Shown here: piece by piece, positions 17,391 through 42,385 of the stretch | How positions within the stretch are numbered: the stretch's first letter is position 1 | Layout of the letters: the number at the start of each line of letters is the position of its first letter | Assembly: GCF_035582795.1 (NCBI RefSeq) | Contig: NC_134367.1 | Coordinates: 116,522,062 to 116,586,061 of the forward strand | DNA from: Mycteria americana | Lineage: Eukaryota > Chordata > Aves > Ciconiiformes > Ciconiidae | Length of the DNA: 64,000 bases | Direction of reading: 5' to 3' | Translations under genes and position numbers: made by a program | The notes under the pieces: model-generated | The model's database searches: none | What the model was told of the DNA's origin: nothing | Seen by the model: the letters and a program-made list of their open reading frames with translations, nothing else

Positions 17391-17396
17391 TTTATT
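17391..17396 (-). terminator. SRSF7: SRSF7 copy 1 polyadenylation signal (AATAAA on minus strand)
   Basis: On the minus strand the context is attggcgcattgaaataaac. The 3' end of copy 2 has attggcacattgaaataaaa at the matching place. The shared flank shows that the duplication includes the 3' UTR and poly(A) signal. The upstream 3' UTR block 'aagggattttgtggtgtctt' is also shared by both copies. Confidence 0.85.
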
Positions 17397-17656
17397 TCAA
17401 TGCGCCAATAAAAAAAGCCCAACGTTTCCAGATCACAGAACATTAACACAACAAAAGAGTTTTGCATTAGTCTACTAATAAGACTTTTAAAAGATCCAGA
17501 TTCATGCCAACTGTTAGTCAATAGAAACAGCCTTCTAGGACTAAGCCCTTACATGTATAAAGACACCACAAAATCCCTTATAATAATGTAAACAAAATAA
17601 ATTTTCTTCTTAAACTTTTTAAATTTGAATCCATTCTTTCAGGACTTGCACTCCCT

Positions 17657-20600
17657 TCAAGGGCTTCCTGATGGTGAGTGACTGAAAGGGAAAGAAAAAG
17701 ATTAAGAGCAACTCCTACAGCAAAACCAACAGAAACTGTGCATACGACCCCAGGTTTCCTCTGCTCAGGAGCCCTCCCCCCTACCTCATAATGCCCCTCC
17801 CCACACTGTTTTCATTTACAGTTCATCAATGAGAAAAGTCTTATATTTTACACCTTTAAGTAACAACTGCTTTAAGCTTGACAAAGGCAGGCAAAATAAG
17901 AGACATAGCTGCAACAGCTAGGTGACACATCCAGCCTGCTCAGAAAGCACCTTGGAGCCTGTGCTCCAGCTGTGCAGAGGAATTCTTAGTCTGCCATAAC
18001 CTACACAGTTCCACCAGTTTAGGGCTAGCCATGAGGCACTATGTCAGACTACGTAAATTCCAGCGCATACATCTCTGGTTACATAGGAAAACTTGCTTCT
18101 TACTTCACAGTGCATAGCAAAACTTGGCAGCTGTGCAACTGAGTGAGAGCCAGCTGTGAGGAGCCACCAGCAGGAATTTAATCCGACTGTGTATTCATGG
18201 TTTGCTCCACACCTTACATTACTCACTTCTTCCCCAGATTCTAAATTCCTCAGAAACTTCAGGATAGTCGATTCTCATTTGCCCACATTTTTCTGTTGTC
18301 CTTTAAAATGTCATTAAAGTAGGTTACCTTAGAGTTATTAACATGAAGTTCTGACTACTAGCAGTAGGAAGTGCCCATAAAACTTCATCTTTTCATAGTA
18401 GGAAATGCCCATAACAATTCATCGTTTCACAGTTCACAAATTAAGACAAGTAAAAAAAAACCACCACAACTTTTAAGCTTTTATCCTTGCACAAGTTAAC
18501 TTCTATAGCAAGAACTCCAGATGCTAATTCTATGTAACTGTATGGCACATTCCAGTTTTAAGATACTCCTACCTTCTCTTTGGAGATGGTGATCTGGACT
18601 TTGAGCGACTGTTAAGAAGAAAAACAAAACAAACAAACAAAAAACAACTGATATGGTAAACTTGTATACACTCAGTAACACTTTTGACCACTTAAAAACA
18701 GTAAGAACAGTTTGATGTTGTTAAATACATTAAAAGACACCACCTTTAATGCTGCTGATAGCAAGTATACCCAATTACTTTAAGCAAGAAGCTGCAGTTG
18801 AGAAGGAAAACTGCTGAAAGCCAGAGCCCTCAGGAAAAGAGCAACACACAGCTTCAAAGCAGCTATAAAATGGTCACAGTAATCCTGCAAAGCAGGAGCA
18901 CTGAATCAAGTAGAGGAGAGTCAGGAAGACTGAGAACTACAAACAGCTGAGAACAAAGGTAGGGAAAAATATGCCCCAAATCCTGTCAAAAATACTTTTT
19001 GTCACAATCATGTGACAAAAACCTGTATCCACAATCCTTCTGGAAGAATTGCCTACTGTCCCACAAAATTCAGCTATATAAAAAAAAAATAATGTATGAA
19101 AAGTATTTTTAAATCAGCTACTAAAAAAACCAAACAAAACACACCACCACGCCCCAAACCCCTCTTCCACATGCAACTGAAATACTGGTCCAAGCAAAGA
19201 TTTTGAATCATGACAAAAAAAAAACCCCAAAAAACAAGAAAAAAACCCCACCAAATAAAACAACCACCCACACAAAACCCAAAAAACCTGAGTGCTACTT
19301 GTATTTATACGCTCACCTTTTAGCAGGTAAGCCAGATTTAGATCTACCATGGGACCCAGACCTACAACAGGAGAAAAATAAAGCTCAGCAAAGCAGCCAG
19401 TGGCATGCACATACAATGAAAGTTATCTAAACCAGCAACAGCAAATTCATACTACATAGTATCACAAACTAGAGAAGAAAGGCTCTGGTGCTGCAGGCTT
19501 TTCTCATGACATTTCAGGAGAATCCTTTAGCTCTTATTCCAGAGACCCCACTTACCAGAAGACAAGAGTACAAGCACAAGAAGCTCCCCAGCAAAGCTTC
19601 AGCTACCACTTTCACAAAACAGAAGACCTTGTACCAGGCTCCCAGACTTTCTCATCACCTGCAATTATTCCTTCCATAAAGGGAAGAATAGTTTCAAGTG
19701 TCATCTTAGAAAATCTTTTAATAGCACATTAAGAGCCTGGAATCAGCCACAGGTAAGCATATGTGCTGAAGAGCTGATGCATTCTTCAGATCAAGTTCCC
19801 AGTGCCACTTTTATTTAAGTATAATACAGCTTTTCCATCAGTTATAGCGAAAACTGAAATGCTGTTTACACATTACTAATGTGTAAACTCTTCCCAGTCC
19901 ATCTTATGAATTAAAATCTACTCAAACAGTGAGACTCTCCTCCCACATTTATCATGTTACTTTACCAACTCAAGTATTTGCTGTTACTTAGACAAATATT
20001 TGTCCTCCTAGAGTGTCATGTGGCATGTGGTATTACTGAACATCAGAAAGCCCAATGTTCAAGATAATCAGTTGTTTAATAGACTTAGCCAAAGAAGTCC
20101 AAAACTTTTATATTATTTCTGCTCAGAATTGTTTTTAAAGGGTAACCAAGATTCACCTTTACCTGGCCTATTAACTTACAGAAATACTACATGGACATTG
20201 TTGGCATAAGTTAAACAAAGAGTTACATGCCACTGCTTTGAAACCTTCCTGGTCACTATGCTGAGCCATCGCCTGTCACACTATAACCAGTAATTTTGTT
20301 ACTGTGTCACAGTTACACAGGATGGAGTTGCCCACATCTACTCAGAACTCATAGTTTTGTCGTACAAGCATGACTTGCTTTGGTAGGAAATACAGGAAGG
20401 CAGCACGCAAGAGCATCATCTTACTACAAGAACTGCTGGCAAATCCTCCTTCCAAGAGACACACCAACAAAGCAGAACTGCAGATCAAAAGCTCTACAAG
20501 CAGCACCAGTTACATACTAGTGTTCTGCTGTATTAGCAGAGGACCAGCACTGGCTGGAGTTTTCACAATGCTTCCCTAACTCCAGTCCTGAACTACCACT

Positions 20601-23600
20601 TCTCACCACTGCAATTGCAGACATATGCAAAGTCAGCATTCCTCAGAAATTTCAGTATGAGTATCAAGTCTTTCATGCAGGAATGTGACTGTCCCAGAAC
20701 TAGAAGTCATCACGCAACATCAGCAGTATCCAGACTATTCCACAGTAGCAGCATGCAATTTGAGCCTGGTTAGTCATGTCCTGCATTACAGGCCTGTATG
20801 AGTAGTAAGTCAGGACAGCTCTAATAATAATAATAATCATCATCCCCTTAAAGGCTCAATGTGCAAGTCCTAAAGTAGCAGGCAGACCCCTAAAAGACAT
20901 TTCTCTTCCCCCGTTCTAATGCAAAACAAAAGGCAACTTCTTCCAACTTATCAGCTCTCATGTCCATCACATTTTTGTCCTACTCTCACCCTTCTTCCAA
21001 CTAAGACTTATCACAAAAGATAAAGGAAAATAATGCAGGAGCATTTACTCTATACTCATTTTCCTCAACTTCCATTTCAGCATGGAAAACATCCAGATCC
21101 ACAAACCAAGGCTATATGTCAGAGAAATCCTTCAAAACACTACCTGTGGCATTAGGACTCATGGTTCTGTTAACTCAGCCCTCCAAACCTCTGAAGTCAA
21201 GCGTCCTACCCCATGTAATGCAGTTCTTAGCACTACAGCAATTTAATTTGATCTCTCAGAGAACTGGAACTGACAAAGCTGAACAGCTGTAAGCAATAGT
21301 TCGCTCAATAGTGGCAACCTTCTCATCCCTTTTTTTCTTCCCCCAGCATTTGGGATTTGCAAAAAAACATGCCAAGAAAAACCTAAGCAGCATTTCCTGC
21401 AGGACACAAGGTCAAGCATTCTATACATGGATAAGCATTAACTAGTTTTCAAAACTTCTCCACAGACCTTAAATCATATGTATGCTTTGTTTATGCCTAC
21501 ATATACATATAGACTATATGTAGTAGCCACAGACCAAAACAAACTCATGTTTATTACAAGAAATCAATCACTACTTTAGTCTGTGAAAAAGCACAAAATT
21601 ATTAACTTCAAGTGCCAATATTGCTATGCTGCACAACCTTCTAACCCCTTCCAGCCAAACTCCCCTGAGGAAGGAAAAAAACAAACAAACAAACCCAAAA
21701 AAGAAACACATCCAAGACTATTATTGGTTTGAATTAAAACAAAGTATCTTACCTGCTTCGAGGCCATACAACAGACCGGGACCTTGAGCGTGATCTGGAC
21801 CTAGATCTAGAAAAAAATAAAAAGGCAGTGAAAGCTCAACTACTACTACATGATTCACACAGCTGAGATACTACTCTTTGACTTTTATGATACCGACCTC
21901 AGAGAATTTTGTTGGAACTATTGGTTTTGCAGAACTTTTATTATTAGAAAGCTGTAATACATTTGGCCAGTGCTACCATACACATAAGAAATCACACTGT
22001 CCTAGTCAACTAAGCATAATTACTCCCTGCATCCTTGAAGCTGAAGTAGAAAACCTTAACCACAGATCAAGGCTGTAACCTTGATACAATATAAAAAAAG
22101 CTCAGAAACAGCAGTTCCAAAATTATATGCTTAAGTTTAACTTCAAAGAAAGTGTTCATATTAGCTCTCAGGGATGTAACACAATGAAGGTTCCTGCAAA
22201 CACACAGACTGCAAAATAGAAGCTTAATGTTAACTCCAACAGTTATGTTCCCTTCAACAATGCTGTGGGCTTAATAGAAAACACATACCTTGATCTCCTT
22301 AAAGAACCAGACCGAGATCTGCGGGGTGAAAATGATCTATACCTACGAGGAGAGATTGACCTGGACCTGCGGTAGGAAGCTGACCTTGATCTACAAAAAC
22401 AAAGGGAAAAAACAATCAAAATTACTGCAAGGTATTTTTCACAAGGATCACAGAAAGGGATGAAGCAGAGGGAGGAGTAAGAAAAAGAATTAAAACACAA
22501 CAGCCAGAACCCTACCTCCTACCACGACTCCGACTGCGTGACCGAGAATACCTTCTTCCTCGGGACCTTGAACGGGATCTAGACCGGGACCTGGTTTTAG
22601 GTTAGAGAAAACAGGTATCAGGAAACAGCTGCAGCAATCAGTGCACGTGAGGCCCTGCTGAAGTCAAAACTGATTTCAGACAACTAAAAAAAAAAAAAAA
22701 AGAAAGAAAAAAACCAAACAAAAAACAAAACAACAAAAACACACCACTAGCATCTGTCAGTTGGAAAAATCTCTGGGCCTACTTGTCTTGAGCATTTTAC
22801 TACCTAGAAAAATGTTAAAAGCTGAATTACATTGCAGAATTACATTAGAATAGAAAACACTGTAATGCATATTTAAAATAAACCTTGCAAGTTTGCAGGT
22901 CGACCCTCTTTGGCCCAAGGTCTAGCAGATCTAGACGATCTAGAAGTATCTATAGCCGATCGCTGCATCTAGGTGTTCTCTTCAATCTAACGACGATCAA
23001 ACTGACAGCCCAATGAGCCAGGGTGAGGCTTGATTGACGCAAGAAGATTTTTCTAGGTGGGAATGTGGTCAATCTGGTGTTCCTCTTTCTAAACCGGAGG
23101 GGGGCCCCAATTGAAAGCCAAATTTACTGTTACGGCGATCACCGTCTCAAATTTTCTGCCCTTAAAGAATAAGGTGAAGCTACGTGTAGATGGCTCGAGG
23201 GGATCTGGCCTCTTATGCTGATCACCTCAAGGTCTAGGAGGATCTTAAGTGTCGGATTTGCAAGGCGCCTCAGCATGAAATCTTAAGGCTCGTGACATTC
23301 TGAATCAAGGCGACTGACTCAAACGAAGAAACCTGAAAGGTTTTGACCAGGTTGATTATTAAGATATTAACATTTTATATGTATTAGCAAAAAAAAAATT
23401 GTGATATACACCTGTTGACTTACAACATTAAGAGTTAAAACTGGCGTAACATTCTGTTCTTTGCTAACAAGAGCTACACAAAAGTGAACCGGTGAAGCAA
23501 CCCAGCCACTCTGGCCCCACACGTACCTGCTCCTCCTTCGGCGACTATAGCGGTGACAATCATAAGCATAGTGGCCTTTCTCACCACACTCATAGCATCT

Positions 23601-24478
23601 GTCGTTAGGGTCAAAGGGGCGCCGTGCAGGAGGCCTGTCATAACGGGAGCGACGAGGCATCCCTGTTGACACTTCCACTCTAACCCTGGAGCCACATATT
23701 ATCCTATAAAATACAGTATGTATTGATCACAGGAATGCTTTTCTCTCCTCTGCTTGTTACACACAGAACAGATATCGATGATTGCTGCTGGCTGAGAAGG
23801 TTCAGAAACTGCAGCCAGAGCAGTCAGGGAGTTTTTAGGCATGCACGTACTTCCCATCGAGGCCGAGCACAGCATCTTCAGCATCCCTCGGGTCTTCAAA
23901 CTCCACGAAAGCAAACCCCGGCGGGTTCCTCGCGATCCACACGGTTCTCAGGGGCCCGTAGTAGCTGAAGGCTCTCTCCAGCTCGCCTTTGCCCGCGCCC
24001 GTGCCCAGGTTCCCCACGTACACCTTGGTCTCTGCCGGTAGAGACGCCATGTCAGGGCCGCCTCCCAGCCCCGCACAGCGGCCGCAGCGCGCAGGCGCGG
24101 CGCTAGATACGAGACCGCGCGCGCGGCGCGACCGCCGCCGCAGCCCCTCCCCCCGCCGCCCGCCGGCGCCGCCATCTTTGACACCGCCTCCATTTTGGTG
24201 CGCTCTCGCCGGTGCTGCACTTTCCCTCCCCCCACCCTCATCAGGGCCCACTCTTCGCCGGGCCCGCGGCCACGGCCCCAGCGGCCCCACAGCGGCGGTC
24301 TGTCCCTAGCGTCCCCCTCCTCGGCCCCTTGGCGCCATCTTCTCTCACAGCCCGCCGCCCGAAGCAACGGCCACCGCCTCCCATCCTCAGCGCGGCACGA
24401 ACGACGCCGTCTGCCCACCCCGCTCCGCACTGCCCCCGGCCCCCCATCCCCCCTACCGTAACGCCCGTAGCGCGACAT
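17657..24478 (-). CDS. SRSF7: SRSF7 copy 1: serine/arginine-rich splicing factor 7, inverted duplicate, 238 aa with shortened C-terminus
   Basis: Nine exons, high to low: 24457-24478, 23851-24031, 23527-23703, 22516-22590, 22289-22390, 21753-21806, 19317-19361, 18573-18608, 17657-17681. All splice sites are GT-AG, and lengths of exons 2-8 equal those of copy 2. SRSF7 (9G8) binds GA-rich RNA, promotes exon inclusion and assists mRNA export. Order: RRM (KVYVGNLG = RNP2, GFAFVEF = RNP1), CCHC zinc knuckle ([14 protein letters not shown]), RS domain. Odd points: the exon-1 donor lies 6 nt early, so MSRYGRY joins ETKV without the Gly-Gly of copy 2. R is replaced by L in VLGLDG. The RS domain has Y, F, V, G and L replacements. 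TGA at 17657-17659 ends the protein at SHSPSGSP, ten residues before copy 2's SASPERMD end, and a 1-nt insertion follows. Introns rule out retroposition. Probably expressed, but this is unproven. Confidence 0.88.
19209..19287 (-). repeat. Low-complexity G/T-rich tract (minus strand) in SRSF7 copy 1 intron 7
   Basis: On the plus strand this is an A/C-rich stretch of aaaccccaaaaaac type. As transcribed (minus strand) it becomes repeated GGG and GGGG runs separated by T runs, starting about 30 bp after the exon 7 donor. Intronic G-runs near donors often act as splicing enhancers; a quadruplex is conceivable. No counterpart was noticed in copy 2. Confidence 0.6.
22747..23375 (-). promoter_or_regulatory. 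SRSF7: Intron-3 ultraconserved block with poison-exon region, SRSF7 copy 1
   Basis: Lies between exon 3 (to 23527) and exon 4 (from 22590). It aligns base for base with 36602-37230 of copy 2 over 629 bp with one difference (22869 against 37108). In mammals SRSF7 intron 3 carries an ultraconserved element containing a poison cassette exon; its inclusion causes nonsense-mediated decay or split ORFs and lets SRSF7 limit its own level. Repeated GA-type sites such as agatctagacgatctaga fit SRSF7 binding. The exact poison-exon edges were not assigned. Confidence 0.8.
23851..24031 (-). CDS. SRSF7: SRSF7 copy 1 exon 2 (most of the RRM)
   Basis: Holds RNP2 and RNP1 of the RNA-recognition motif. From the 5' end, 163 consecutive bases equal copy 2 exon 2 (35942-36104), synonymous positions included. 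The last 18 bases then differ at five sites, changing VRGLDG to VLGLDG. Just upstream, in intron 1, an in-frame ATG at 24052 reads MASLPA directly into ETKV. A transcript starting inside intron 1 could therefore use an alternative N-terminus. Confidence 0.9.
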
Positions 24479-24512
24479 CTCCCCGGCTACAGGCCGAGCC
24501 CCGCGCGCGACC

Positions 24513-24520
24513 CTTATATA
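24513..24520 (-). promoter_or_regulatory. SRSF7: TATA-like box upstream of SRSF7 copy 1
   Basis: The minus strand reads tatataag 35-42 bp before the ATG at 24478. If used, transcription would start near 24490 and leave a 5' UTR of only about 12 nt, unless initiation is further upstream. The region before copy 2's ATG has no such element. Confidence 0.5.
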
Positions 24521-24659: not shown

Positions 24660-24663
24660 CAGG

Positions 24664-25440: not shown

Positions 25441-25442
25441 CT

Positions 25443-25448: not shown

Positions 25449-26345
25449 AACAAGGGTTAGACAGACTTTTCAAATGCATTTGAACATACTAATGTGTTTT
25501 GGTGCTATCTCATAATAAGACACAACAAATCAATACACTAAGAGATAAATGAGGGCTCTAAAGGCTCCTGACTAGATTAATAATCTCAGGAACAATCACA
25601 TAATAGTTCTTGTATCGTGTGTTGCCATAAGCTAGAAACAAAGCATTAAGAAACACAAACTAATTGAACTGCAAGAAATTATCTTTCTGTAGAACAAAGG
25701 TATTCCAATCACTGCTGCTCTAAAATAACAAATATAGATAGGAAATGTTTCTAAAACCTGCTATTTGCCTACTAACTTTCCCTAATAGTTCTACAAACTT
25801 GGACCTACATTGTAACTCGTGTTCTAAAACCGGAGAACAGTTGAGGGGAAAAAAAACCAAAAAAGCTTCCTGAACAATTTTTTTATCTGGTTTGGGAAGT
25901 CCAAGTGTCACAATTCTCCTTCTGGGGAAGAAAAAAAAAAAATCTGGTAAGCAGTTCAAATAAACATGCCTACACCACTAGATAATTAATTTAAAGGCAG
26001 AGGAAAACACAGTTTAAATTTATCATATATCATCTTTCACAATACTGTTACAAAAAATACTTACTAAACTGATAGATCAGCTTAATACTGATATAGTAAA
26101 CCAATGTATCGGTTTAATACATCATCATCATCCAATGGCTTGCTTTTAATAAAAAATAGTGCACGGAAAAGGCTTCGTGCTTTTAGTTTATACTGCTTGT
26201 TTTATCCCTTTCTTAACATAGAAAAATCAGACAAAACTACCTAAACCCAGCATTTTTCCAAAGAGTGAATACTGATACCCAGGACAGTTCCTAAAATAGG
26301 GTGGGTGGACCCATTCCTAAAGACAACTGCTTTAAACAGCAGACG

Positions 26346-28474
26346 TCACTGTTGTTTTTCAAGATAGCCCTGTATCAAGCCTTGAACCCGAGACAGAATA
26401 ATCTCATTGGAGCTGCTGCACTCTTCTGGGCCGTATGGTGGGTCAACAGTCAATACCCCCGCCACACATAGTGTTCTTCCCGATTCACCTTGCTCTGTTA
26501 CCGGGATGTGGTTTGTTTCTAGCCAAGTCTTCAAGTCATTCTTCCTCTTTTCAAGTTCCTCTGGGCTGTAGGCTTTGCTTTCTTCAGGCGCAAATATGCA
26601 AGAAAGCCGTTGCTTCATTTCATCATCCCCTTCTTTCAGTATTTCAACCTCCTGGACAGCATGGCCCAAGACAACAGATATGGACACTTTTTCATTCTCC
26701 AGGAATGTTGCAAGGACAATACTGCCAAGGAACGAAGGATGTATGAGTCACTGTACTTAACTGAAGACTGAGAAACACAGGCCAAGATTCTTGGAGATGA
26801 GTGCTCATTAGTGTAACCCAGGTATTTGGGCAATATCAAGTACACAGCATTCTTCTTGAAAAGCATGCTGCTATACCCTTAAAATACCAAAAATGTGGGG
26901 CTTTGCGGGTAACTTCTGGCCTTGAATTTGAAACTACTCTAGATACTATCAAGCAAAACACTACTTTAAAAAAGCAAAGTATACATTAAAATCAGGCCTG
27001 GGAATCTAAATATTTTTGTGCAGCATTCCCAACCTTGCTGAAGAACCTCAAGTCTTCCAGCGTTCAAAAACGATACCTTCATACATTCAGCACTTCGAAT
27101 GCTGAAGGCAATGGTGGCAGCTAACATCAGAACCTTTTAATGACAAATTATTAATATTTAATTATTGATCATTACTAAAAGAATAATATATATTTTTTTT
27201 AAATGAGCCTTGCTAGTTTCTTAACTGAAAACTATAGCTTGAGTATTACAATGGGAACACACCACAGCAGGTTCAGCCTGGTCTTTTCCCAAGGGCACTT
27301 ACATCCCAGAAGTCCTAAAATACAGGTAGGAAGGCAGCTTGTTATATTTCTAGGATCTCTTCCCCATATATCAATGAAGAGGACCAGAAACTATTTTCTT
27401 CCTCTTGAGGGAAGAAAAATTCCAGAATTTGATGCCAGCACTTTGCTAATCTACTGTTGCCGCCATTAGTGGACGTAATGACTTTTTGGGAAATGTGCAA
27501 TGAAATATGCCTTGATTTTAGCCTGGGCCCTCCCCAGAATCACTCACAGCTGCACACACCTTTCCTACCAAAATGATAAGCAACTCCAAGAGAAGATTAG
27601 AGTATCGGGAGCTACTCCAGAGTTGAAGCAACAACCAATTCTTCTGAAACACATCAGAAGATGGATGTTTTAGTTTCTAGCTTCCATCTTGTGCTCATGT
27701 GGGACAAGCTGACAACCAAAAAGGTATGAAAAAGCTCTGGCAGCAAGGAGTCAAATTTCTGTCTATTGCCTGGTGCGTTCTGCTTTTCAAACCGTTTTCA
27801 AGTTACTCGAGATACTAGAGACCTGTGGTACCACTTTCTGTCCAGTGCCCTTGCTGATTTTCCCTGCTTCCTCTCCAAAGCAGCCACTACACCTTTATGG
27901 GTGTCTAGCTGGAGGGGAAAGCAGGGCATTGATGTGAGAACTCTGGACAGAGGATAAGGATTTCAACAACTAAAGCACTAAAAACATTGCTGCATTCCTG
28001 CTGTCTTTGTGAAGAAGGGCTTGGTATATTATTAAAAGTGGTACTAAACACATGGATATTATTTAAAGTACTAACCTCAGGTCCACAATAAAGTCAGCAT
28101 GAATCCAGGTATTATCCATTCCCCAAACTTATCAGTCCTTTGCATGAGATTAAAGTGGATTTAGGTGAACTGGCTTCATCAATTACAATATTGCTTTCTC
28201 TTAGTCCTTGCCAATTAAAAAAACAGGACACAGCCCCAGTATGCAGTTTTTGCTCCAAATAGGTTTGCTTCAGTCTTGGGATCTTTTCTCTTCCTGAAAA
28301 ACTTGTTTTCTCTTAGCTTTACAGAAACAAAAGTTTTGGTACTTACCTGGCAGAAACTGGATCAACTGTTAAGACCCATCCTTCATATTCGTGTCTCTCA
28401 ATTGCAGCAACTTTCACCATTTTGTTCACATACGTCTCCCAGTCTAGAGGGCTTTTCCTCTGCCAGTCATTCAT
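26346..28474 (-). CDS. GEMIN6: GEMIN6, SMN-complex component (gem-associated protein 6), 167 aa
   Basis: Two coding exons: 28347-28474 (ATG at 28474) and 26346-26721 (TGA at 26346-26348), joined in phase 2 (GCC AG|T). The product is 167 residues, the length I recall for human GEMIN6. The N-terminal part (MNDWQRKSPLDWETYVNK, then EYEGWVLTVDPVSASIVLATF) is the Sm-like fold that pairs with GEMIN7. The C-terminal half carries KAYSPEELEKRK, NHIPVTEQGE and VDPPYGPEECSSSNEIILSR. Within the SMN complex GEMIN6 helps load Sm proteins onto snRNAs in the cytoplasm. The coding exon is preceded by an acceptor (ttttctag, exon start 28492) with 18 bases of 5' UTR, so a non-coding first exon lies upstream. 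The protein looks intact despite a retrovirus in its first intron. Copy 1 of SRSF7 lies just beyond its 3' end, copy 2 just beyond its promoter. Confidence 0.95.
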
Positions 28475-28595
28475 ATTTCCTACATCCAGAACCTAGAAAA
28501 TAGCCAGAGCAATTAGCCGAAGCAATGAATCCTTTTGCTTTGCCCTTCACATCAGAACTGAGTTTGTCTCCAGGTAAAGATCTTCCATTCATCTT

Positions 28596-29351
28596 TGTGA
28601 GAGACTGAAAGAGATAATGTCTCAAACATTGTGGCGAGACGCTATTTGCATGGCGATGGCAGGTCGGCAAGCACGGGATGGGGGAGAGTGAGAGCGGGAT
28701 GTGTGGGATGTGGAGAGCGCATCGGAGGATGCGCGGTTCTGGGTTCTGCCGGACCTTACCATCTATGGCCAGAGGTCACACAGAGTTGATCTGAGGAAAG
28801 GGCTTGCGACCACCCGAGAGACCCCTTGCGACCACCCCCCTCCCCCAGCGCCTGCGCAGAAGATTGAGAACTTTCTAGAACAAGAACCATGTAAGTCCTG
28901 AAGGCAGGGATTAGCTTATAAAAGACACGCCCTCCAGGGAACCATGCGCGTGCCCACCACTGGAGGATTCCCATGTCTGTCATCGTGATTGCGGGATCCA
29001 AGGGTGGTGATACTTTCTCTTTCCTCCTCTCTTCTCCTTTCCTTTTCTTGCTTCTCTCTTCCTCCACTCTTCCAATATATGCAAGTTTGGGATAAATTGT
29101 GACGGGTTGCCCGGAAAATAGCTCCATTGCCAAATTGCCTCTGTTCATTTGTTGAGCTCACCAGTTCATTAAGTTTGTCCGTTTGTGGAATTCGCCAGTT
29201 AATAGCTGGCCAGACTGTTCCTCTGAGTCATTGTTGTGACTCTACCGACCACGTGGCTCTGCCAAGCAGAGATCGGCTTTTGTCGGTACACAAACCATTG
29301 GGGAATCAAAAAGATTCACCCATCTCGCAACCCACCGAGTGGGACGAGACA
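28596..29351 (+). repeat. 5' LTR of the endogenous retrovirus
   Basis: 756 bp with TG...CA ends. It contains TATAAAAG at 28917 and a long pyrimidine tract (about 29012-29070). Compared with the 3' LTR it has many substitutions, roughly one in ten over the first 160 bases and often at CpG, plus small indels. One deletion removes the AATAAA that the 3' LTR has. The divergence indicates an old insertion. Confidence 0.93.
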
Positions 29352-29357
29352 TTAATT

Positions 29358-30847: not shown

Positions 30848-31040
30848 ATTTCTCACATGGATGGTGGTCCTCCTCTCCGCGAGGAAAGGAGGACACAGGG
30901 GGGAGTGGAAACCATATTCCTTCAAACCTTGTGTGGGAACTATGATTTCTCACGTGGATGGTGGTCCTCCTCTCCTCTGGGAAAGGAGGACATGGGGGAA
31001 GTGGAAACCATATTCCTTAGAAGCTTGTGTGGGAACTAAT
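30848..31040 (+). repeat. Tandem duplication of about 97 bp inside the retrovirus
   Basis: Unit 1 is 30848-30944 and unit 2 is 30945-31040. Both begin atttctcac and contain tggatggtggtcctcctctc, accatattcctt and gtgtgggaact. They differ at a modest number of bases, so the duplication is not very recent. No coding role is seen. Confidence 0.85.
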
Positions 31041-31738
31041 TCATGTGTTTACTAGAATCTGGAATAGAACCAACCAAGGGATATGTGTTGCCCTTCCCCA
31101 GTCAACTGAACAAGGATTGAGATTTGTTGTTGTTGGTGGTGGTTTTTGTTGCATTACCCAATATTATGTATAACTTGGAAAAGTTCTTAACTATAACACT
31201 GGTCCTGGGGACCCCCCCAAAACCTGGCTCTTGGAGAGAGTAAGGGTTCTGATAAGGGACGTGTATTTGTTGGGTTTGTCCTTCCCACAGATATAGAAAC
31301 CGGGATCTTCTGTGCATCAAGACTTACGGTAGAGTCAAGTATTGCAGCATACCCTGTACACGCTATGCTTTGCGGAGCCTGCCACTCACTGCAAAACCTG
31401 ACATACCTGTAAAATTAGCATATACCCGGCGCCCTTGGGACTCATTTGGGGATGTTCTAATGGGAAATTTTATTCCTGCTTAACATTGAAGTATCATGCT
31501 GGTCTGAAATGTGGATTAGTCATCCCATCCTTATGCCCATCTCATGTTTTCAGTTTCACCGCCCTTCCCTGGCGAGTGCGCTGGGAAGTGGCAGAAGCCC
31601 CCAAAAACTCCATGTTGAATTAAAGTGCTGGGCGATGTTGTATAACATTGTCCATCTCACAACTCCAGTACTACTGCACTCTACTACTACTACTACACTC
31701 ACAACATCAGTACTACTATAGAGGCAGCATGGACCAAA

Positions 31739-31942
31739 ATGAAAGAAATTGCTGACCAAGCTGCTGAACTATTTAGATCACTCCAACCGAAAGACTGTTT
31801 CAATGGGCATGCACCTGGATCTTGGATCGCTTCCCTCCTACAATCCTGGGGACTCACAGGGTGGGGGAAATGGTTAATGAAAATTGGAATAACCCTGTTG
31901 GCTGGATTTCTGTTCATTATGACTGGCATAGCTATTGTTTAA
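31739..31942 (+). pseudogene. Envelope-like C-terminal remnant with membrane segment
   Basis: A 67-codon open stretch ends in a strongly hydrophobic segment of about 20 residues (roughly 31871-31939). It is preceded by tryptophan- and glycine-rich sequence (SWGLTGWGKWL), resembling the membrane-anchor end of a retroviral transmembrane subunit. No upstream surface subunit is intact. The assignment is tentative and rests on position before the 3' LTR and composition. Confidence 0.45.
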
Positions 31943-32153
31943 TGTATGATTACCCATGTGCTTGCTTGTGCTTTCATTCTTTTCTCCTGCTGTTCACTAT
32001 GTACATATCACCAGCCTGGAAGACAAAATCAAGGACCCTCTGCCAACTCTCATTGAAAATATACGATTTTGCGAACTATGTCTTCTCGATCTTCTCTATG
32101 TGAAAATCGTCGCCCTAGATGAAGATTATATAAACATTTGAGCCACGGGGTGG

Positions 32154-32927
32154 TGTGAGAGACTGAAAGAGTTAATGTCTCAAACATTGTGGCGAGGCAC
32201 TATTTGCATGGTGATGGCAGGTTAAGGAGCACAGGGTGGGGGAGAGCGGGAGAGGGACATGCAGGATGTGGAGAGCGCATCAGAGGATGCACGGTTCTGG
32301 ATTCTGACGGACCTTACCATCTATGGCCAGAGGTCACACAGAGTTGATCTGAGGAAAGGGCTTGCGACCACCCGAGAGACCCCTCGCGACTACCCCCCTC
32401 CCCCAGTGCCTGCACAGAAGATTGAAGACTTTCTAGAACAAGAACCATGTAAATCCTGAAGGGGCATACCTGGATTAGGGATTAGTTTATAAAAGACACG
32501 CCCTCCAGGGAACCATGCGTGCGCCCACCACTGGAGGACTGCCGTGTCTGTCATCGCGGGATCTAAGGGTGGTGATACTTTTTCTTTCTCTTTCCTCCTC
32601 TCTTCTCCTTTCCTTTTCTCGCTTCTCTCTTCCTCCACTCTTCCAATATGTGTAAGTTTGGGATAAATTGTGACAGGTTGCCCGGAAAATAGCTCCATTG
32701 CCAAATTGCCTCTGTTCATTTGTTGAGCTCGCCAGTTCATTAAGTTTGTCTGTTTGTTGAATTCGCCAGTTAATAAAGTTGCTGGCCAGACTGTTCCTCT
32801 GAGTCATTGTCATGACTCTACCAACCACACGGCTCTGCTGAGCAGAGATCGGCTTTTGTCGGTACACCAACCATCAGGGAATCAAAGAGATTCACCCATC
32901 TCGCAACCCACCGAGTGGGACAAGACA
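32154..32927 (+). repeat. 3' LTR of the endogenous retrovirus
   Basis: 774 bp, TG...CA ends. TATAAAAG lies at 32488 and AATAAA at 32772-32777, in the spacing expected for U3-R-U5. It has about 14 extra bases just before the TATA box relative to the 5' LTR. Its promoter, if active, would point towards GEMIN6 exon 1 and SRSF7 copy 2. Confidence 0.93.
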
Positions 32928-33479
32928 GTCTTAAGCACAATTTGCTTTTTTTAAAAGCAAACATTCACACAAGTGGTTTTCATATTGCTGCAGTTCTGTA
33001 ATTTCCCACCCAGTTCACGTGTTTTTAAAGGCACAAAGCGAAGCCTCAAAAATCACTGTTCTGCTAACTTAACACTTTCCCATTGCATTAAACATTCCAT
33101 TTATTGCTCTGCTCTCTTACAAAACCTTCGGGATCCCTGTCCCTTGAGGGCAGCAGTTTACCGCCTTTGCTCTGTGTACTGGCACATCTCTTGAGTCCAA
33201 GCCCTTCCACTGGCTGTGGATGAGCGTTATCCACCTGCATCCAGGCTCTATCCTCATCCCCTACGGTAGGACGAGCAGCAAGTGCTGTTCCACTCTTTTC
33301 CCTGTACCAGTTGCACTACTGGTAATGACAGCAAAGCCACACCTGTCTCAGCTTGCGGCCACACAAGCATTTGTCCCCATCCCAGTATCCCTCCGCCAAA
33401 GGGGCTGGAGAGAGATGGGGACAGCGCAGTGGAGAGAGGACAAAGGGCTGGAGGAAGCTCCCTCCTTCGTTCTCTCCAG

Positions 33480-33800
33480 GTTCCGTGGCGCTGCCATCCC
33501 GCCTGCCTGCTCCCAGCTGAAGCAGCACGCGGCGGGACGGGCAGCGCAGGCAGCGACCTGGACCAGGCAAGGCGAGCCGCCCGGCTCCCGCCGCTGCAGC
33601 AGCCAGGCTCCACGGGGGCAGGAGGGGGGAGCACCCCGGGTCCACCCCGCCCCTGCACCCGCATCCCCACTCACCGACTACGATGGCCGCCGGCCGCTCG
33701 GTTCCCGACCCTGCCCAGGGCGCCTGGGAGCCTGCCCCGGCCCGGCCCCCTGCGCTCCCTGGCGGGACCGCCGCTTCCTGCTGCAACCGAACACCCTCCC
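33480..33800 (-). promoter_or_regulatory. GEMIN6: Probable GEMIN6 CpG-island promoter and non-coding exon 1
   Basis: A CpG-rich block on the expected side of GEMIN6. On the minus strand a perfect donor (tcg|gtgagtgg) ends an exon at 33675; the intron would run to 28493 (5.2 kb, of which 4.3 kb is retrovirus). The transcription start is not defined. The + strand ORFs crossing this block look compositional. SRSF7 copy 2 starts 1.9 kb away in the opposite direction, so the two promoters are divergent. Confidence 0.6.
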
Positions 33801-35140
33801 CCACCACAGTTTAGGGTTTTTTTTAAGCACGAAATTTAAGGCTCCTGAGGCAGGGAAATGCTCAGATCTGGAGTGTTCTATAAATATGGGTGTGCACATA
33901 AATGATATATAGGTTTATATAGATGAGGCCAGATTGCAAAACAAGGAGGCAGGGCGCGTAGCACTTAAATACACCTGGTGTTCTGCCTTAATTAAGTTGG
34001 GTTTGCCGATGCTCCTGCTACTGCTTGTGAATTTGCTAACTTGAGTACGCAAAACCATGGCTCAAGCTTCTTCAAACAATCTGTGTGCGTAAATAGGTAT
34101 AGATGTATGCTTTGTGTATCTGCTCTTTAAAAATAAGATATTTTTGCTCCCTAGTTTTGAGTTGTCTTTACAAGCTTTCCTGTGCAGCTGTGAGAGCAAG
34201 AAACTTGATTTCCCCCCTCAGAAAGCTGCTCTATTTTACTGCTACTAATGAAAAACTTCGTATGGATGAAGCAAACAAGCTGCCATCATTTCAGTAATTT
34301 AAGTGAAAGCAAGCATGTGATGATTTTGTGAGCATAAGAGAAAAAATATCAAGGGTATAAAATGAGACAGTTTTATTTTGCAGGCTTAAGGAGGTAATTT
34401 CTTTTTTTTTGGTGAAGTTTCAATTCAACTTCCACAGATAATGGGGATTATTTATGAATGGCTTATGTCACTGTATTCAGCTACTGTTTTCTTCCAGAGT
34501 TATAGTTTGTTTATTAGAAAGCAGGGATTAGCAAATCTAATTGTTTTCACTACAAGAGCACGCAACACAATGGGAAATCTTAGCTTCCGTTTGAAAGAAA
34601 AGCGCTGGAAAGAAGGAATGTGGTTTGTTTTTACCTATTTATATGCGTAACGCATTTTAGTTGTTTTCGGTCTAAATAGCTTCCTAACTGGTCTCCTTCT
34701 GGATGACAGACTGGAGGGCAGCTTGTTCACAGTCCCTTTTGAGCAAAATACTCCAAACATCTTCGGTTTTAGTTCTTGCTAGGCTCAGTCCCTACTGATT
34801 TTTTTTTCTCCATTGTTGCCAGTGTAGTTAATTGTTCTGAATCACGAAGCCCTTAAGTATTTTTTTATCCTGTCATCTAAGCCATATCTTATAGATACAG
34901 GTCACTATCGTGGGCAGTTACTACAGCTTTCCCACCGTAAATTTAACCTTAATCACGGTCACAAAGAGGTGCAACTCTCCCAAATCAAGTAACTGTACTA
35001 GTGGAAGCTCCTGGCGCAGATCAAGTCGTAAATACGCAATTCGGGAGACAAAAGCCGCTTTTCTGGTGAGAACAGCTCTGCTGGTATTGCTGCACCGCCT
35101 TCCTAAGCCTACAGCGCCCTTTCGAAAGGATCGGCACAGG
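33800..35140. other. Spacer between divergent GEMIN6 and SRSF7 copy 2 promoters
   Basis: AT-rich single-copy DNA with no recognised gene or transposon. Confidence 0.5.
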
Positions 35141-35935
35141 CCTGAAGCGCTTCCCTCCACCCCGGGGAACGGTGCTTCTCAGGCGCTGCTGGCTTCCGCT
35201 CCGGAGTCGGCTTCCCGCTGCGGTCCCGTTCGCTCACCACGGGAATCCACCGCTGCCGGAACCTCCCCCCGGTGGCGCAGCGGTTACCGGGCGACCCCCG
35301 AGGCCGCCTCCCGCGCCGGCCCTGGCGCTTCCCGCCCTCCGTCCCCCTCAGGCGCCATCAGCCGCACCCCGCCGTCGCCGTAGCAACCGGCGCCCCACTG
35401 CCCGCCCTGCCCCCTGGCGCGCACCACCCCCCACGCGCATGCGCACCGCCTCACGCCGCAGCCCCGCGCCGCCTGGGGGAGGAGGGAGAGGAAGGCAGGG
35501 GGCAGGCGCGGGCGGCGGCGCGTGCGCGCGGAGAGGCGGTTGGCGGAGCCGTTAGGATGTCGCGTTACGGCCGCTATGGAGGCGGTGAGTTCCCGGGGCG
35601 TCGCAAGTGGCGGGCGGCTGCGCGGAGGGGAGGGTGAGGGAGATGCGCGGAAGGTGCGATTACCGCGGGCAGGGGAGCGGCCGGCGGTCGGTGAGGGGGA
35701 AGGAAGGCGAGGCGGCCGTTGCTGCCGTTGCCGCCGCCGCCATTTTGCGTCAGCGGCCGTGGGGGAGGGGGTGCGCCCGCGCGTGCCGCTGCTCGTGGTG
35801 AAGGCGGGAGCGGGCCGCGCAAACAAGATGGCGGCGCCCGGGGTGGGGGGGGCGGGGCCGAGCCGGGCCGCGCCGCGCCGCTGTTTCGGGGGCGCTGCGT
35901 GAGCCCGCCTCTTACTCTGACGCCGGCTTTGCTCC
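35140..35935 (+). promoter_or_regulatory. SRSF7: CpG-island promoter and intron 1 of SRSF7 copy 2
   Basis: Dense CpG from about 35140 through intron 1. It contains a perfect NRF1 palindrome gcgcatgcgc (35435-35444), an X-box matching the RFX consensus (gtcgccgtagcaac, 35374-35387) and, in intron 1, a YY1 site aagatggcggc (35825-35835). No TATA box precedes the ATG at 35557. Site calls are by consensus only. Confidence 0.7.
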
Positions 35936-38900
35936 CAGCAGAGACCAAGGTGTACGTGGGGAACCTGGGCACGGGCGCGGGCAAAGGCGAGCTGGAGAGA
36001 GCCTTCAGCTACTACGGGCCCCTGAGAACCGTGTGGATCGCGAGGAACCCGCCGGGGTTTGCTTTCGTGGAGTTTGAAGACCCGAGGGATGCTGAAGATG
36101 CTGTCCGTGGACTTGATGGGAAGTACGTGTGCATTTCAGATGTTTGCAGGAGCTACAGCCGTTTTTAAAACCAGAGAGAGAATCGGGGTTTTCTCTCTTG
36201 TTTCTTCTCCTTTTTGTAGTTCTGCCATAAACAATAACGATTAACTTAGAGCCATCATGGACTTGTTGCAGGGTGATATGTGGCTCCAGGGTTAGAGTGG
36301 AAGTGTCAACAGGGATGCCTCGTCGCTCCCGTTATGACAGGCCTCCTGCACGGCGCCCCTTTGACCCTAATGACAGATGCTATGAGTGTGGTGAGAAAGG
36401 CCACTATGCTTATGATTGTCACCGCTATAGTCGCCGAAGGAGGAGCAGGTACGTGTGGGGCCAGAGTGGCTGGGTTGCTTCACCGGTTCACTTTTGTGTA
36501 GCTCTTGTTAGCAAAGAACAGAATGTTACGCCAGTTTTCTTTAAACTTTAACGCTAGAATAAATGTATAGGTATATATTACAATTTGTTGCTATTTCTAT
36601 CAAATGTTAATATCTTAATAATCAACCTGGTCAAAACCTTTCAGGTTTCTTCGTTTGAGTCAGTCGCCTTGATTCAGAATGTCACGAGCCTTAAGATTTC
36701 ATGCTGAGGCGCCTTGCAAATCCGACACTTAAGATCCTCCTAGACCTTGAGGTGATCAGCATAAGAGGCCAGATCCCCTCGAGCCATCTACACGTAGCTT
36801 CACCTTATTCTTTAAGGGCAGAAAATTTGAGACGGTGATCGCCGTAACAGTAAATTTGGCTTTCAATTGGGGCCCCCCTCCGGTTTAGAAAGAGGAACAC
36901 CAGATTGACCACATTCCCACCTAGAAAAATCTTCTTGCGTCAATCAAGCCTCACCCTGGCTCATTGGGCTGTCAGTTTGATCGTCGTTAGATTGAAGAGA
37001 ACACCTAGATGCAGCGATCGGCTATAGATACTTCTAGATCGTCTAGATCTGCTAGACCTTGGGCCAAAGAGGGTCGACCTGCAAACTTGCAAGGTTTATT
37101 TTAAATACGCATTACAGTGTTTTCTATTCTAATGTAATTCTGCAATGTAATTCAGCTTTTAACATTTTTCTAGGTAGTAAAATGCTCAAGACAAGTAGGC
37201 CCAGAGATTTTTCCAACTGACAGATGCTAGTTCTTTAGTTGTCTGAAATCAGTTTTGACTTCAGCAGGGCCTCACGTGCACCGATTGCTGCAGCTGTTTC
37301 CTGATACCTGTTTTCTCTAACCTAAAACCAGGTCCCGGTCTAGATCCCGTTCAAGGTCCCGAGGAAGAAGGTATTCTCGGTCACGCAGTCGGAGTCGTGG
37401 TAGGAGGTGTGCTTAAGTTCGTCTTTTGTTCCTATTTGCTTCTTTTGCTTAGAAAAAGCTACACTTGTACAACTCTTTAATTCACTTCTTTGCAGGTCCA
37501 GGTCAGCTTCCTATCGTAGGTCCCGGTCTGTTTCTCCTCGTAGGTCTAGGTCTGTGTCCCCCCGCCGGTCCCGATCGGGTTCCTTGAAGAGATCAAGGTA
37601 ATTAGTAGTAATTTTTAATAGGTTGTGTGTTTTGTTTTTGTTGTTGTTTTTTGTTTTAGTTAAGGGATTCAAAAAGGTATTGGATAGCAGACTCTGAAAG
37701 GTGTTCACCTCTAGAAATCAGACTTTATCATACTTTAAAATGTTTCTGATTATCCTAGTTGAATTTACAGGCATGGTAATACAATTAGCCATGAGACCCT
37801 ATACAGCTGCATATCTCATGATGAATTTTGATGTCTAAAACGCCCAATGATCACGTAGGTTTTAAGTTCAACGTGTAGACATTAATCTAAGTAGTGCTGT
37901 AATTGTCATCACTTCTGGTTGAGTTGACTTCTTTGATTTTGTTTTAATTTGTCTTAATTCTTTATTTCAGGTCTAGATCAAGATCCAGGTCTAGATCCAG
38001 ATCTGTTACATGGCCCCGAAGCAGGTAAGATCTCTTCTGTGACTACACATACTTAGTAAAAGTTGCTTAAAAGTCTGTTTAGGCTTTCTAACAGCTGTTA
38101 ACATTTTCAGAAAAAGCTGTGTTTTCTCTCCACTAACTTAGGGGTCTGTAGTTTTAAAAAGCAGTGCAGAAGATTGTTCTTTCTCTTTTTATTGTTTTAC
38201 ATATCACTGATATCAGGTCCTGATAGTCATCAGAAGTACTGTTTTGATCAGGTTGCATTAACAGCTAACATAGCAAACAAATTTAGAATTAATCTGAAAA
38301 GTTTTTTTCTTTTTCTTTGTGTAGCACACACAAGATTGTGGATTCTTCTCATTATTTGTCAGAGAAATCAGGATGCCCTTCCGGTAGTGTGTTAAAGCAT
38401 TAATGCATATAGCCAGGCAAGTTGTAAAGGGCTTGCTAGTGCCATGAGTGTTACAGATGTTTCCAGCTCTGTTGAATAACAAAGTGGCAGTCTGGAGGAG
38501 CGGAATTAAATTTGAGATAAACACCTGTCAGAGTTACTTTGTACCAACAAATGTGCTATAAGAGTGATGATCAAATTTTAAAGGAACACAGGATGTCATT
38601 CATTCTCTTAAGTTGTAGTTTAATCCTTCCATAGTAAGTGAATGCAGCTTGTGCCTTGTGCAACCTTGTCCAGGCAGCGTGGCTGACATAGGCTGATTGG
38701 ATGTCCTCGGCAAGCTGTCATAGGAGAACAAGAGTAAATTGAAGTTCTGCTCTGAAGGAGATGGTACTGCTCTTGCCCCAGCCCGTTCCCAGGCCTACTG
38801 TTCTGGTTTGATGGCTGCTCTCTGAAATAAATAACACAATAGTCAACCACGAAGAAACACGAAAAAATAAAGGGAAGCTTTAGCTGAAGGGAGTAAGGTG

Positions 38901-41900
38901 GAAAAATCTACAGCTGAAGATGGGAGATTCACTGCTGAAAGGTGGTGGTGGCATTTTCTGAGAGTGGAACAGCAAGCAATGACAGGAGTTTTTAGGGAAT
39001 GGAGAGATGAAAACCAGAAGATGTTTTGACAATTAAGAGCAGAAACTCACACATAACAGTCCAGAAGCTAGTAAAAACAGAAGGGAAATTCCCTGGGGCA
39101 GTAGAGCAATGCCTTTCACTGATCAGGTACACTTTCTCTACCTGTTGCTAAGATATGGTGAAACTTAATACCAGTTGTTCCAGTGTGACTTAATCATGGC
39201 TCATCACTTTGCTGTCATTGATGAGCAGAAAATGGCTACAGCCAACAGGCTCTCAAAGAGAAAAACATCTTGATTTTACCACCATTGTTTTCTTTTTTTT
39301 AGTACCAGGATGGTTTTCTGCAGTGTAAAGGATGCTTTTAGTGAAATTTCTAGACTATTGTGTGACACCTTTCATTGAAAATAGAGATTAAGTGACTGAG
39401 GCAGAGGAAATTACAGGCATACAAGTACAGAGAAGTGGCAAAATATTGGTGTTTAACTCTTAATGAAGTCACTGTTAAACTTCCACATGAGGCAATTGAA
39501 AGATAGTTTCTTTACAGAAGAATCAAAGGAATGCATAGCACCCAGAGACACGCTCTTGATTTATAAGGAAGACAGACTGAATAAGTATTACACGATGTTT
39601 CTGGTTTGACAGCGTCAAAGTGTACATCTGGAAGTTGTGGAAAGCCTTGGATGTGGAAAGTAGAACAGTTCCTTTGGGAACCTAAACATTTCAGTTATTC
39701 TTTTAGGCAGTATTAGTGTTCTTATGGTGCAGCAGTCTTATCTCAAAGACTGACATTTTTGACAGTCTTTTCACAAGGGTTAAGTTCAGACAGATTTAAA
39801 AAAATATTTTGAGCAAGTGCATATATAAGATGAAGTGCACTGAGGAGATGTTTGTAGGAGTGTGCTGCCTGCAGCCATTTTCAACTATAGTGGTAGATGT
39901 CAGTCAAGCCTAATAAAACTTGCAAGTTTAGAGCATGGTTTTTTTATTAGCTTTGTGAAAATACTGGTCAGGATTTGGGTTGTTCATGTATTCCTGCCAC
40001 CTGCATCAGCAAACACCAGTCAGCCAGGGACCAAAGTACAGAGCAACATGTGCACCATCCATTTAAAAAGCTTTCTTCTGAAACTTAGCAGGAAAAGCCC
40101 TGGAAGCTCACAGGATTCTATCTGTTCAGCATGACAGTTCTTGCACATTTACTGTGAATCTTGGTGTCTCAAATGTGGGAACATGCCTGCTACCAGCTTC
40201 CCTGCTGAGCTGTGTTTTTTCTTCTTTTTGTAGGTCTAGGTCTCATGGCAGATCAAAGTCTGGCTCGCCGGCTAAGAGGTAAGCATACAGAGATAAAGCC
40301 CGCAGTAGTATCTAGAATTCAGTATTAGGTTTGCATGATTAACAGAGCCTGGTCCTTTAGAAAAGAATCCTGCATACATGGGTGACCAGCTAATCTGTTT
40401 GCAATATGACTGAGATTATAACATTTCCTTTGCAGCTATTTGGAATATATTCCTTACCCATCTCTTTGTTTTCATTAACTCTTTGTAGTTTCCAACATAG
40501 TACTGATTTTTTTGTGTCTTTGTGCTCAGTTCTGTTAAATTTTTCTATCCATCAGATAACGGGCTTCAGCTTTATTAATGCTGTTGATAAAACAGCAGGA
40601 GCCTGTGATGATGATGTTTCTTTTCTCAAAGCTTCACCTCAGTACCACCCCTTTTTTTCCTGTTTTCTTTACTGAAGACAGTTCCTTAAAATTAATCTCC
40701 ATGCTAAATGAATTGAGAATCCCTGTCAGAGTAAAAGTTGATTTGAAAACTTTGCCATTTTGAAGAGCTTCTGGCTAGATTCCCATAATAATTCTATTGC
40801 CGTCTAAGATGCGTATTTTTTTGAATATAAAAGTTCCATTTGCCCTTTAAGCTGCATTGATGATATTCTGTTTTGACAGTCGGTCAAAGTCCCGATCACC
40901 ATCTCCAAAGAGAAGGTATGTTGATCTCCCTACTAATAACGTAGACTCCGTAGAGCTGGCATTTTAGTATCTGCAGTGATCTCTGCTGAGGAGTTTGACT
41001 GCTGCTTGTAGGAAAATACTGGAAAGGTATTTTGCCAAGATCTCTTCGACAGAAATAATGTTGTGATTGTGGTTTTATATATGGTACTACATATGTGGTA
41101 ATAATTCCTTGGGATACTGGTTACGTAGCAGTGTTACGTCACACCTTTGTCTGCTCCTGTATTCATTTCAGTTCACTAACAGTTTTATTGCACAGTGACT
41201 TCCTACTGGTGAAAGCACAGAATAAAGCTTTGAGTCTCATTAAAAGCTGCAGTGAGGTTGGGGAAGATAGGGTGGAGTAACCTGACGTAGTAGTCGGGAA
41301 TGGAAGATCGAGTCTGTTATTTTTACTGCTGTTACTCAGATTATTTTTTTTCCCAATAAGTTGGTAAATAATTATCTGTGTGTGTGTGTGCATATATGTG
41401 TAGTGACAGAATCAGCAGCATTTTTTTCCCTAGTTTGAATTCTTTAATAGTTCGTTTTTACAACTTCAGTGTTCAGAATTTGCAGGGAGGGGCTATATCC
41501 TGGTAAGAATAGCTGTAGACCTGCCATGATGTGTCCCTTGCCTTGGTGATCCTTCTGCCCTGCAAGTTGTTTCTTTTTTTGTTTGTTTGTTTGGGGTTGT
41601 TTTGTTTTTTTTTTTAAACATACTTACAGAACATCTACACTTAGGTTTGCTTTGTTTAAAAACGTGGCTGTATGTAGTCTAACCTCAAAAACAATCACAA
41701 GGGACTGGAATAAATGCTCATAAATGCTGAGTGATCGCCATAATAGGTTTTGACAAGCTGCTGTATCAGAACAGTGAAGAAATATCCTGCCTCCATGAAG
41801 GTTGCTATTAGTAGTACCCTTTAGATGACTTTACAAAGATACATTTAAATTGTATTACAAAAATAACAGCAGAGAAATTAAAAAATGTGAAAGTAAAAAA

Positions 41901-42146
41901 AAAAATAGATGTATTATCTCTAACATTAAATCATCAACACATTGACTTTGTCAATAGCGATTGGTTATTTTATTAAAAAACAGTGCTGACAGGGTGCCGG
42001 AGTAGTGTAGGTATCCTCCTGTTGCTTTTTCCTGTATTTATGAATCCCAAATGACTACTGAAATGTTAACTGTGGATTCTTTTCCTTTCAGTCGTTCACC
42101 ATCAGGAAGCCCTCAAAGAAGTGCAAGTCCTGAAAGAATGGATTAA
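35557..42146 (+). CDS. SRSF7: SRSF7 copy 2: serine/arginine-rich splicing factor 7, 250 aa, at the ancestral position
   Basis: Nine coding exons: 35557-35584, 35942-36122, 36272-36448, 37332-37406, 37496-37597, 37971-38024, 40234-40278, 40880-40915 and 42092-42146 (TAA 42144-42146). All introns are GT-AG, and every junction from exon 2 on is phase 2. The protein starts [18 protein letters not shown]. It has an RRM (RNP1 GFAFVEF), the CCHC knuckle [14 protein letters not shown] that distinguishes SRSF7 from SRSF3, and an RS domain of RS dipeptides ([12 protein letters not shown]) ending SASPERMD, as in mammals. It is a nuclear splicing and mRNA-export adaptor whose RS domain is phosphorylated by SR-protein kinases. 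The mammalian gene order places SRSF7 exactly here, between GEMIN6 and GALM, so this is taken as the parent of copy 1. The exon 2 acceptor is a cagcag tandem. Confidence 0.96.
36272..36448 (+). CDS. SRSF7: SRSF7 copy 2 exon 3 (end of RRM and CCHC zinc knuckle)
   Basis: Encodes [34 protein letters not shown], the zinc knuckle [14 protein letters not shown] and the start of the RS domain. From 36276 into the intron to about 36537 only one base differs from copy 1 (36371 against 23604, synonymous). At the exon start copy 1 reads KIICGS where copy 2 reads KVICGS. Confidence 0.94.
36602..37230 (+). promoter_or_regulatory. SRSF7: Intron-3 ultraconserved block with poison-exon region, SRSF7 copy 2
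   Basis: Counterpart of 22747-23375. The 629-bp block lies between exons 3 and 4 and differs from copy 1 at one base. Multiple stops occur in all frames. In mammals this intron contains the NMD-inducing exon used for SRSF7 autoregulation; identity of the region is inferred from position and extreme conservation between the copies. Confidence 0.82.
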
Positions 42147-42379
42147 AGTTATGAAGTTAATCTTTTAGGAAGAAAGTTATTTTGCTTACATTATTATAAG
42201 GGATTTTGTGGTGTCTTTGTAAATGTAAGAATGTAGATAGAAGAGTATATCAACTAAAATTTGGCATGATCTGGGTCTTCTGAGTTAGTCACACCAATAG
42301 ACTAGCACAGGTCTCTTTTTATTGTATGAATTAACTTCCTGTGATATGAAAATGTGGGACTTTTTTATTGGCACATTGA

Positions 42380-42385
42380 AATAAA
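42380..42385 (+). terminator. SRSF7: SRSF7 copy 2 polyadenylation signal (AATAAA)
   Basis: AATAAA 234 bp after the stop, in a context shared with copy 1 (cattgaaataaa). It defines a short 3' UTR. Confidence 0.85.

Follow-up and report, generated by a model that had tools for sequence, protein, structure and literature searches.

In mammals there is a single SRSF7 gene, located between GEMIN6 and GALM, and its product is separated from SRSF3 by a CCHC zinc knuckle lying between the RRM and the RS domain. Two SRSF7 genes in one vertebrate are also found in the teleosts (srsf7a and srsf7b, known here by name alone), where they derive from a fish duplication. The mammalian protein, SRSF7 or 9G8, consists of an RRM, a CCHC knuckle and an RS tail, and the human gene contains a 449-nt poison exon (PMC6547761). 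In the text of that article used here, human SRSF7 possesses two poison exons, 4a and 4b, the inclusion of both being promoted by SRSF7 itself; the exon at chr2:38976040-38976488, whose coordinates span 449 nt and which increases on depletion of NMD factors, is not assigned to either of them in that text. Mammalian SRSF3 also promotes inclusion of SRSF7 poison exons (PMC3439968), and PTBP1/PTBP2 form a further pair in which one protein drives poison-exon inclusion in the RNA of its paralogue (excerpts of PMC11062102 and PMC3439968). Gene conversion between inverted copies that lie a few kilobases apart and share near-identical stretches is described from palindromes such as those of Y and W chromosomes (PMC3403216, in part).

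The locus described here lies in a 64,000-nt stretch of DNA from the bird Mycteria americana (the window; contig NC_134367.1). SRSF7 again lies beside GEMIN6 and GALM, and the RRM, knuckle, RS tail and 449-nt exon recur. Unlike mammals, the bird has two copies, one of them inverted and shortened at its C-terminus, with exons 2–4 and intron 3 apparently homogenised. In contrast to the Y and W palindromes, this pair is situated on a chromosome-sized contig of more than 116 Mb, only about 1.2 of its approximately 7 kb appears homogenised, and its flanks are old and diverged. The poison cassettes of the bird pair are identical; the likeness to PTBP1/PTBP2 and SRSF3/SRSF7 concerns the regulation proposed for the pair. 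With a probability of roughly 0.8, we regard the pair as an ancient inverted duplication which was partly homogenised by ectopic gene conversion, the predicted poison exon included. Among the titles and abstract openings of the SRSF7 papers retrieved no duplicate of the gene in birds was described, and those of the gene-conversion papers retrieved did not mention SRSF7; bird genome annotations may already include the second copy.

Gene models and organization of the locus

The original prediction placed two complete SRSF7 genes in inverted orientation around GEMIN6, and the gene models and Pfam matches bear this out (Table 1). The copies are oppositely oriented, pointing away from each other, with GEMIN6 in between. 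They have the same nine-exon structure, exons 2–8 measuring 181, 177, 75, 102, 54, 45 and 36 nt in both, as had been predicted, and all 16 introns (eight per copy) are of the GT-AG type. The anticipated poly(A) context was also present, with AATAAA at 17391–17396 (minus) and 42380–42385 (plus). Pfam analysis gave a gene order of a helicase gene with HA2 domains, copy 1, GEMIN6 (minus strand), copy 2 and an aldose-epimerase gene. The names DHX57 and GALM for the outer two genes are those of the original prediction, and the Pfam domains of the helicase do not single out DHX57. No Rfam family matched the window at gathering thresholds.

Two stretches look, on inspection by eye, like mobile elements. 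One, resembling an endogenous retrovirus, occupies 28596–32927, upstream of the coding exons of GEMIN6. It is framed by direct repeats (28596–29351, 756 nt; 32154–32927, 774 nt), the 89% identity of which suggests an old insertion, and it contains two adjacent direct copies of approximately 95 nt, also 89% identical (30848–31038). The other is an open frame at 6183–6605 that resembles the part of a CR1 retroposon at its reverse-transcriptase end.

Table 1. Coordinates of the features of the SRSF7 locus (positions of the window, plus-strand numbering)
Feature	Position	Strand	Details
SRSF7 copy 1, from its start codon through the poly(A) signal	17391..24478	-	coding 24478 down to 17657; 238 aa
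Copy 1 exons 1-5	24457-24478, 23851-24031, 23527-23703, 22516-22590, 22289-22390	-	
Copy 1 exons 6-9	21753-21806, 19317-19361, 18573-18608, last coding from 17681	-	stop at 17659-17657
SRSF7 copy 2, from its start codon through the poly(A) signal	35557..42385	+	coding 35557-42146; 250 aa
Copy 2 exons 1-5	35557-35584, 35942-36122, 36272-36448, 37332-37406, 37496-37597	+	
Copy 2 exons 6-9	37971-38024, 40234-40278, 40880-40915, 42092 onwards	+	stop at 42146
Open frames with GEMIN6 coding exons, between the copies	26349..28492	-	Pfam Gemin6 and Gemin6_C
Last exon and 3' UTR of copy 1	17295..17696	-	alignable with copy 2 42077-42480; 76% over 418 aligned positions
Downstream block of copy 1	15727..15815	-	matches copy 2 43974-44063; 71%, E 7e-8
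TATA-box-like TATATA	24515..24520	-	42 nt upstream of copy 1 start codon
Apparently homogenised tract 1: exon 2 minus its last 18 bases	35938..36104	+	partner 24035-23869 (copy 1); 167 identical bases
Apparently homogenised tract 2: exon 3, continuing into the 5' part of intron 3	36276..36535	+	partner 23699-23440; 1 difference in 260
Apparently homogenised tract 3: from within intron 3 (predicted poison exon included) to exon 4	36602..37407	+	partner 23375-22515; 2 substitutions in 803 bases, omitting 37231-37233 beside the copy 1 insertion (one further C/T mismatch there)
Predicted poison exon, copy 2	36645..37093	+	449 nt; in-frame TGA at exon bases 26-28
Predicted poison exon, copy 1	22884..23332	-	449 nt; every letter as in copy 2
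T-rich insertion in copy 1 intron 3	22690..22746	-	~55 nt; none in copy 2

Identity of the proteins

Both copies are complete SRSF7 genes with an RRM, zinc knuckle and RS tail. With residues 1–127 of copy 1 as the query, the best match in the PDB was the human SRSF7 structure (2hvz; 186.9 bits), SRSF3 scoring 123 bits, and the N-terminal RRM of copy 1 is thus closest to SRSF7. The zf-CCHC domain scored weakly in the two copies (E=7.7e-4, 19.9 bits and E=8.2e-4, 19.8 bits), approximately 1 bit below the Pfam cutoff of 20.8; a 14-residue stretch present in both matches the CCHC knuckle motif exactly. The translations of both end in an RS-rich tail, that of copy 1 stopping ten residues early at a TGA. 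In the last exon of copy 1 (17657–17681) this TGA replaces a glutamine codon of copy 2; a one-base length difference follows directly, and the DNA beyond it still resembles copy 2.

The assembly (1.35 Gb, 279 contigs) was searched with protein and DNA queries. With the protein query, 33 candidates were scored and 11 matches obtained; the top four were exons 2 and 3 of copies 1 and 2, the fifth (79%) reads as SRSF3, and the remaining six were weaker. A 634-base block of intron 3 had two matches at the DNA level, the copy 1 and copy 2 loci, the part matched being its final 123 bases, just past the predicted poison exon. A single mismatch across these 634 bases within one assembly is what a false duplication might produce, yet the flanks and most introns differ between the copies and the near-identical tracts carry three substitutions and an insertion, so that an assembly artefact is scarcely credible.

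Extent and age of the duplication

It had been proposed that the entire gene was duplicated at the DNA level, and this agrees with the alignments, in which introns are present and homology continues some 1.6 kb beyond the poly(A) signal of each copy. Since the introns are in place, the duplication was genomic and not a retro-duplication. The predicted sharing of 3' UTR blocks was also found, and a further block lies downstream, at a distance from the poly(A) signal of 1576 nt in copy 1 and 1589 nt in copy 2; among 100 random pairs of 2-kb windows none gave a match at E <1e-6. On the promoter side, the interval from copy 1 to GEMIN6 (1.8 kb) matched nothing in 26341–35524 at E 0.05.

The similarity of the two copies is extremely uneven along the gene, a point absent from the original prediction. 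Exons 2, 3 and 4 are 97, 98 and 100% identical and intron 3 is 91% identical; the values are 68% for exon 1, 78, 76 and 80% for exons 5, 6 and 7, 94% for exon 8 (36 nt) and 85% for exon 9 (56–60 nt). The other seven of the eight introns (1, 2 and 4–8) show 47.5–55% identity, compared with means of 44–52% when copy 2 introns were shuffled, the real pairs lying 1–7 points above the shuffled alignments.

Across exons 5–8 Ks is 0.93 (35.5 of 66.7 synonymous sites), Ka is 0.058 and Ka/Ks approximately 0.06; exon 5 alone has a Ks of 1.1, while exons 8 and 9 taken singly give 0.24 and 0.19 from 9.8 and 6.0 synonymous sites. Because Ka/Ks is 0.06, both copies would have been constrained for most of the time since the duplication. 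Judged by Ks, the duplication dates far back. If silent sites in birds change at about 2e-9 per site per year, a Ks of 0.93 would correspond roughly to 200 million years or more, with a large error; the living bird groups split later than about 200 million years ago. An alternative in which the near-identical part shows the true age, a recent duplication having been followed by unusually fast change elsewhere, would accommodate the count of just three substitutions over the 1,230 bases of the tracts. It is very improbable, given that seven introns are near the shuffled background, that exons 5–7 have fallen to 76–80%, and that a silent divergence of approximately 0.9 with a conserved protein is not that of a young pair.

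Copy 2 looks ancestral and copy 1 derived, in support of the original prediction that copy 1 is the inverted newcomer. Two RRM residues differ between the copies, and at both human SRSF7 (2hvz) matches copy 2 (Arg65 and Val71, copy 2 numbering), the corresponding residues of copy 1 being Leu and Ile. Copy 1 is also without two N-terminal glycines and the last ten residues of copy 2, at both of which human SRSF7 presumably agrees with copy 2. The residues, the termini and the position beside the aldose-epimerase gene all favour copy 2. In exon 3 the Val and Tyr common to both copies are Leu and Phe in human (2hvz alignment), which fits common descent and conversion alike.

Near-identical tracts

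The three tracts together comprise 1,230 bases with 3 substitutions, all of them CpG/TpG, in DNA of which CpGs make up 8.5% of the bases; substitutions of this type only are expected of a young homogenisation. Tract 1 includes four intron bases. Between the tracts, intron 2 and a 66-nt patch of intron 3 (36536–36601) are diverged. The copies differ at 3 of 73 four-fold sites in exons 2–4 and at 18 of 49 in exons 5–9 (Fisher p=3.8e-6); inside the tracts the count is 0 of 69 (p=1.5e-8), the tract edges being set by identity itself. Ks in exons 2–4 is 0.06. The three longest runs of identical codons measure 54, 50 and 31, lengths reached in 1, 0 and 0 of 20,000 permutations. The edge is abrupt, exon 4 (100%) and exon 5 (78%) being separated by intron 4, just 89 or 125 nt in the two copies. 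The T-rich insertion in intron 3 of copy 1 ends in a long T run followed by AG and might serve as an extra 3' splice site between the poison exon and exon 4.

Purifying selection acting on the cassette and neighbouring exons since the old duplication could in principle give this picture with no conversion at all. Ultraconservation is ascribed to SR-gene poison exons (PMC3439968), a length of 449 nt is common to the human (PMC6547761) and the predicted bird poison exons, and exon 8, outside the tracts, is also highly identical. Exon 2 argues otherwise. Human SRSF7 primer sequences located in this exon (PMC4901428, in part) differ from both bird copies at 9 of 40 bases, a small sample in which every change is synonymous, yet the bird copies are identical over 167 bases, with all changes of the exon confined to codons 64–67 and no silent difference outside them. 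Of the 21 four-fold sites that copy 2 shares with the SRSF3-like exon of this assembly, 18 differ. Since both comparisons show silent change there, constraint alone probably does not explain exon 2. Furthermore, exons 4 and 5, approximately 100 nt apart, both encode RS repeats, yet the copies agree throughout exon 4, and in exon 5 they have reached the Ks given above. We therefore consider ultraconservation by itself improbable. Conversion is well supported in exon 2 and plausible in intron 3, where strong constraint is expected because the predicted poison exon, 449 nt as in human, lies there, and could give the same picture. The case for conversion is drawn from one genome and 40 human bases.

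Three observations stand against conversion. The 66-nt diverged patch demands two tracts or selection; the outer edges lie where exon 2 begins and exon 4 ends, which is unusual unless the introns had already lost homology; and low silent divergence is seen in exons 8 and 9, outside the tracts. The coincidence of the tract ends with the exon 2 and exon 4 borders, introns 1, 2 and 4 being left unhomogenised, could also point to an RNA donor, namely a partly spliced SRSF7 RNA with those three introns removed and intron 3 retained. We give this little credence: exon 2 was left uncovered over its final 18 bases and exon 3 over its first 4, and the intron 3 patch was skipped, which is unexpected from one continuous template, and ordinary conversion likewise stops where homology ends.

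The favoured history, ectopic conversion between old copies, would run as follows. An old segmental duplication would have given rise to a second, inverted SRSF7 (copy 1) across GEMIN6, and purifying selection would have kept acting on both genes. Conversion between the inverted copies, apparently recent, would then have overwritten exon 2 (RRM) and the unit of exon 3, intron 3 and exon 4, which holds the remaining RRM, the zinc knuckle, the poison-exon cassette and the start of the RS domain. Exon 1, exons 5–7, the other introns and the promoters would have continued to diverge.

Predicted poison exon and regulation

In both copies the predicted poison exon of intron 3 has splice-site dinucleotides and an in-frame premature stop. 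The starts of both genes are CpG-rich; the TATATA pattern ahead of copy 1 was not found in the 400 nt upstream of copy 2. A simple form of the split-ORF idea, with a second, RS-coding open reading frame arising from the poison exon, was unsupported, the RS frame of either copy having no ATG after its last stop in the 449-nt exon. An exact 20-mer of the poison exon gave 0 matches to viral contigs and one match in a contig titled Zarconia navalis, which was treated as chance.

Because the cassettes are identical, either protein should act on both transcripts. Copy 1 being presumably expressed, SRSF7 (and SRSF3) protein from any source would act on the same poison exon in each RNA, the pair would be regulated as one pool, and a single loop likely holds total SRSF7 despite two genes. 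A stronger version, concerted evolution of a poison exon, is tentative and rather doubtful. In it, repeated conversion would reset only the autoregulatory cassette and the RRM and would be favoured by selection for shared dosage control, so that one feedback loop serves a pair of genes unlike in their promoters (TATA-like in copy 1) and RS tails.

Significance of the second SRSF7

The original prediction spoke of a retained second copy, a notable one in view of the tight control of SR protein dosage. The DNA-level duplicate stands, and the description was incomplete: the pair is old by Ks, yet its RRM and zinc-knuckle exons and the intron with the poison exon are nearly identical. The argument from dosage gains force because the apparently homogenised part holds the counterpart of the self-limiting element of human SRSF7 (PMC6547761, text used here). 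Trees built from SRSF7 exons 2–4 or intron 3 would misdate the duplication. With the copies inverted, a crossover between them would reverse the interval holding GEMIN6 and would not delete a copy.

The second SRSF7 is genuine and old, and it holds more of interest than an ordinary duplicate would. The low tolerance of SR poison exons for change is, in our view, a puzzle, and an old, apparently converted copy offers a natural experiment on whether the cassette must match between paralogues for dosage to be balanced.
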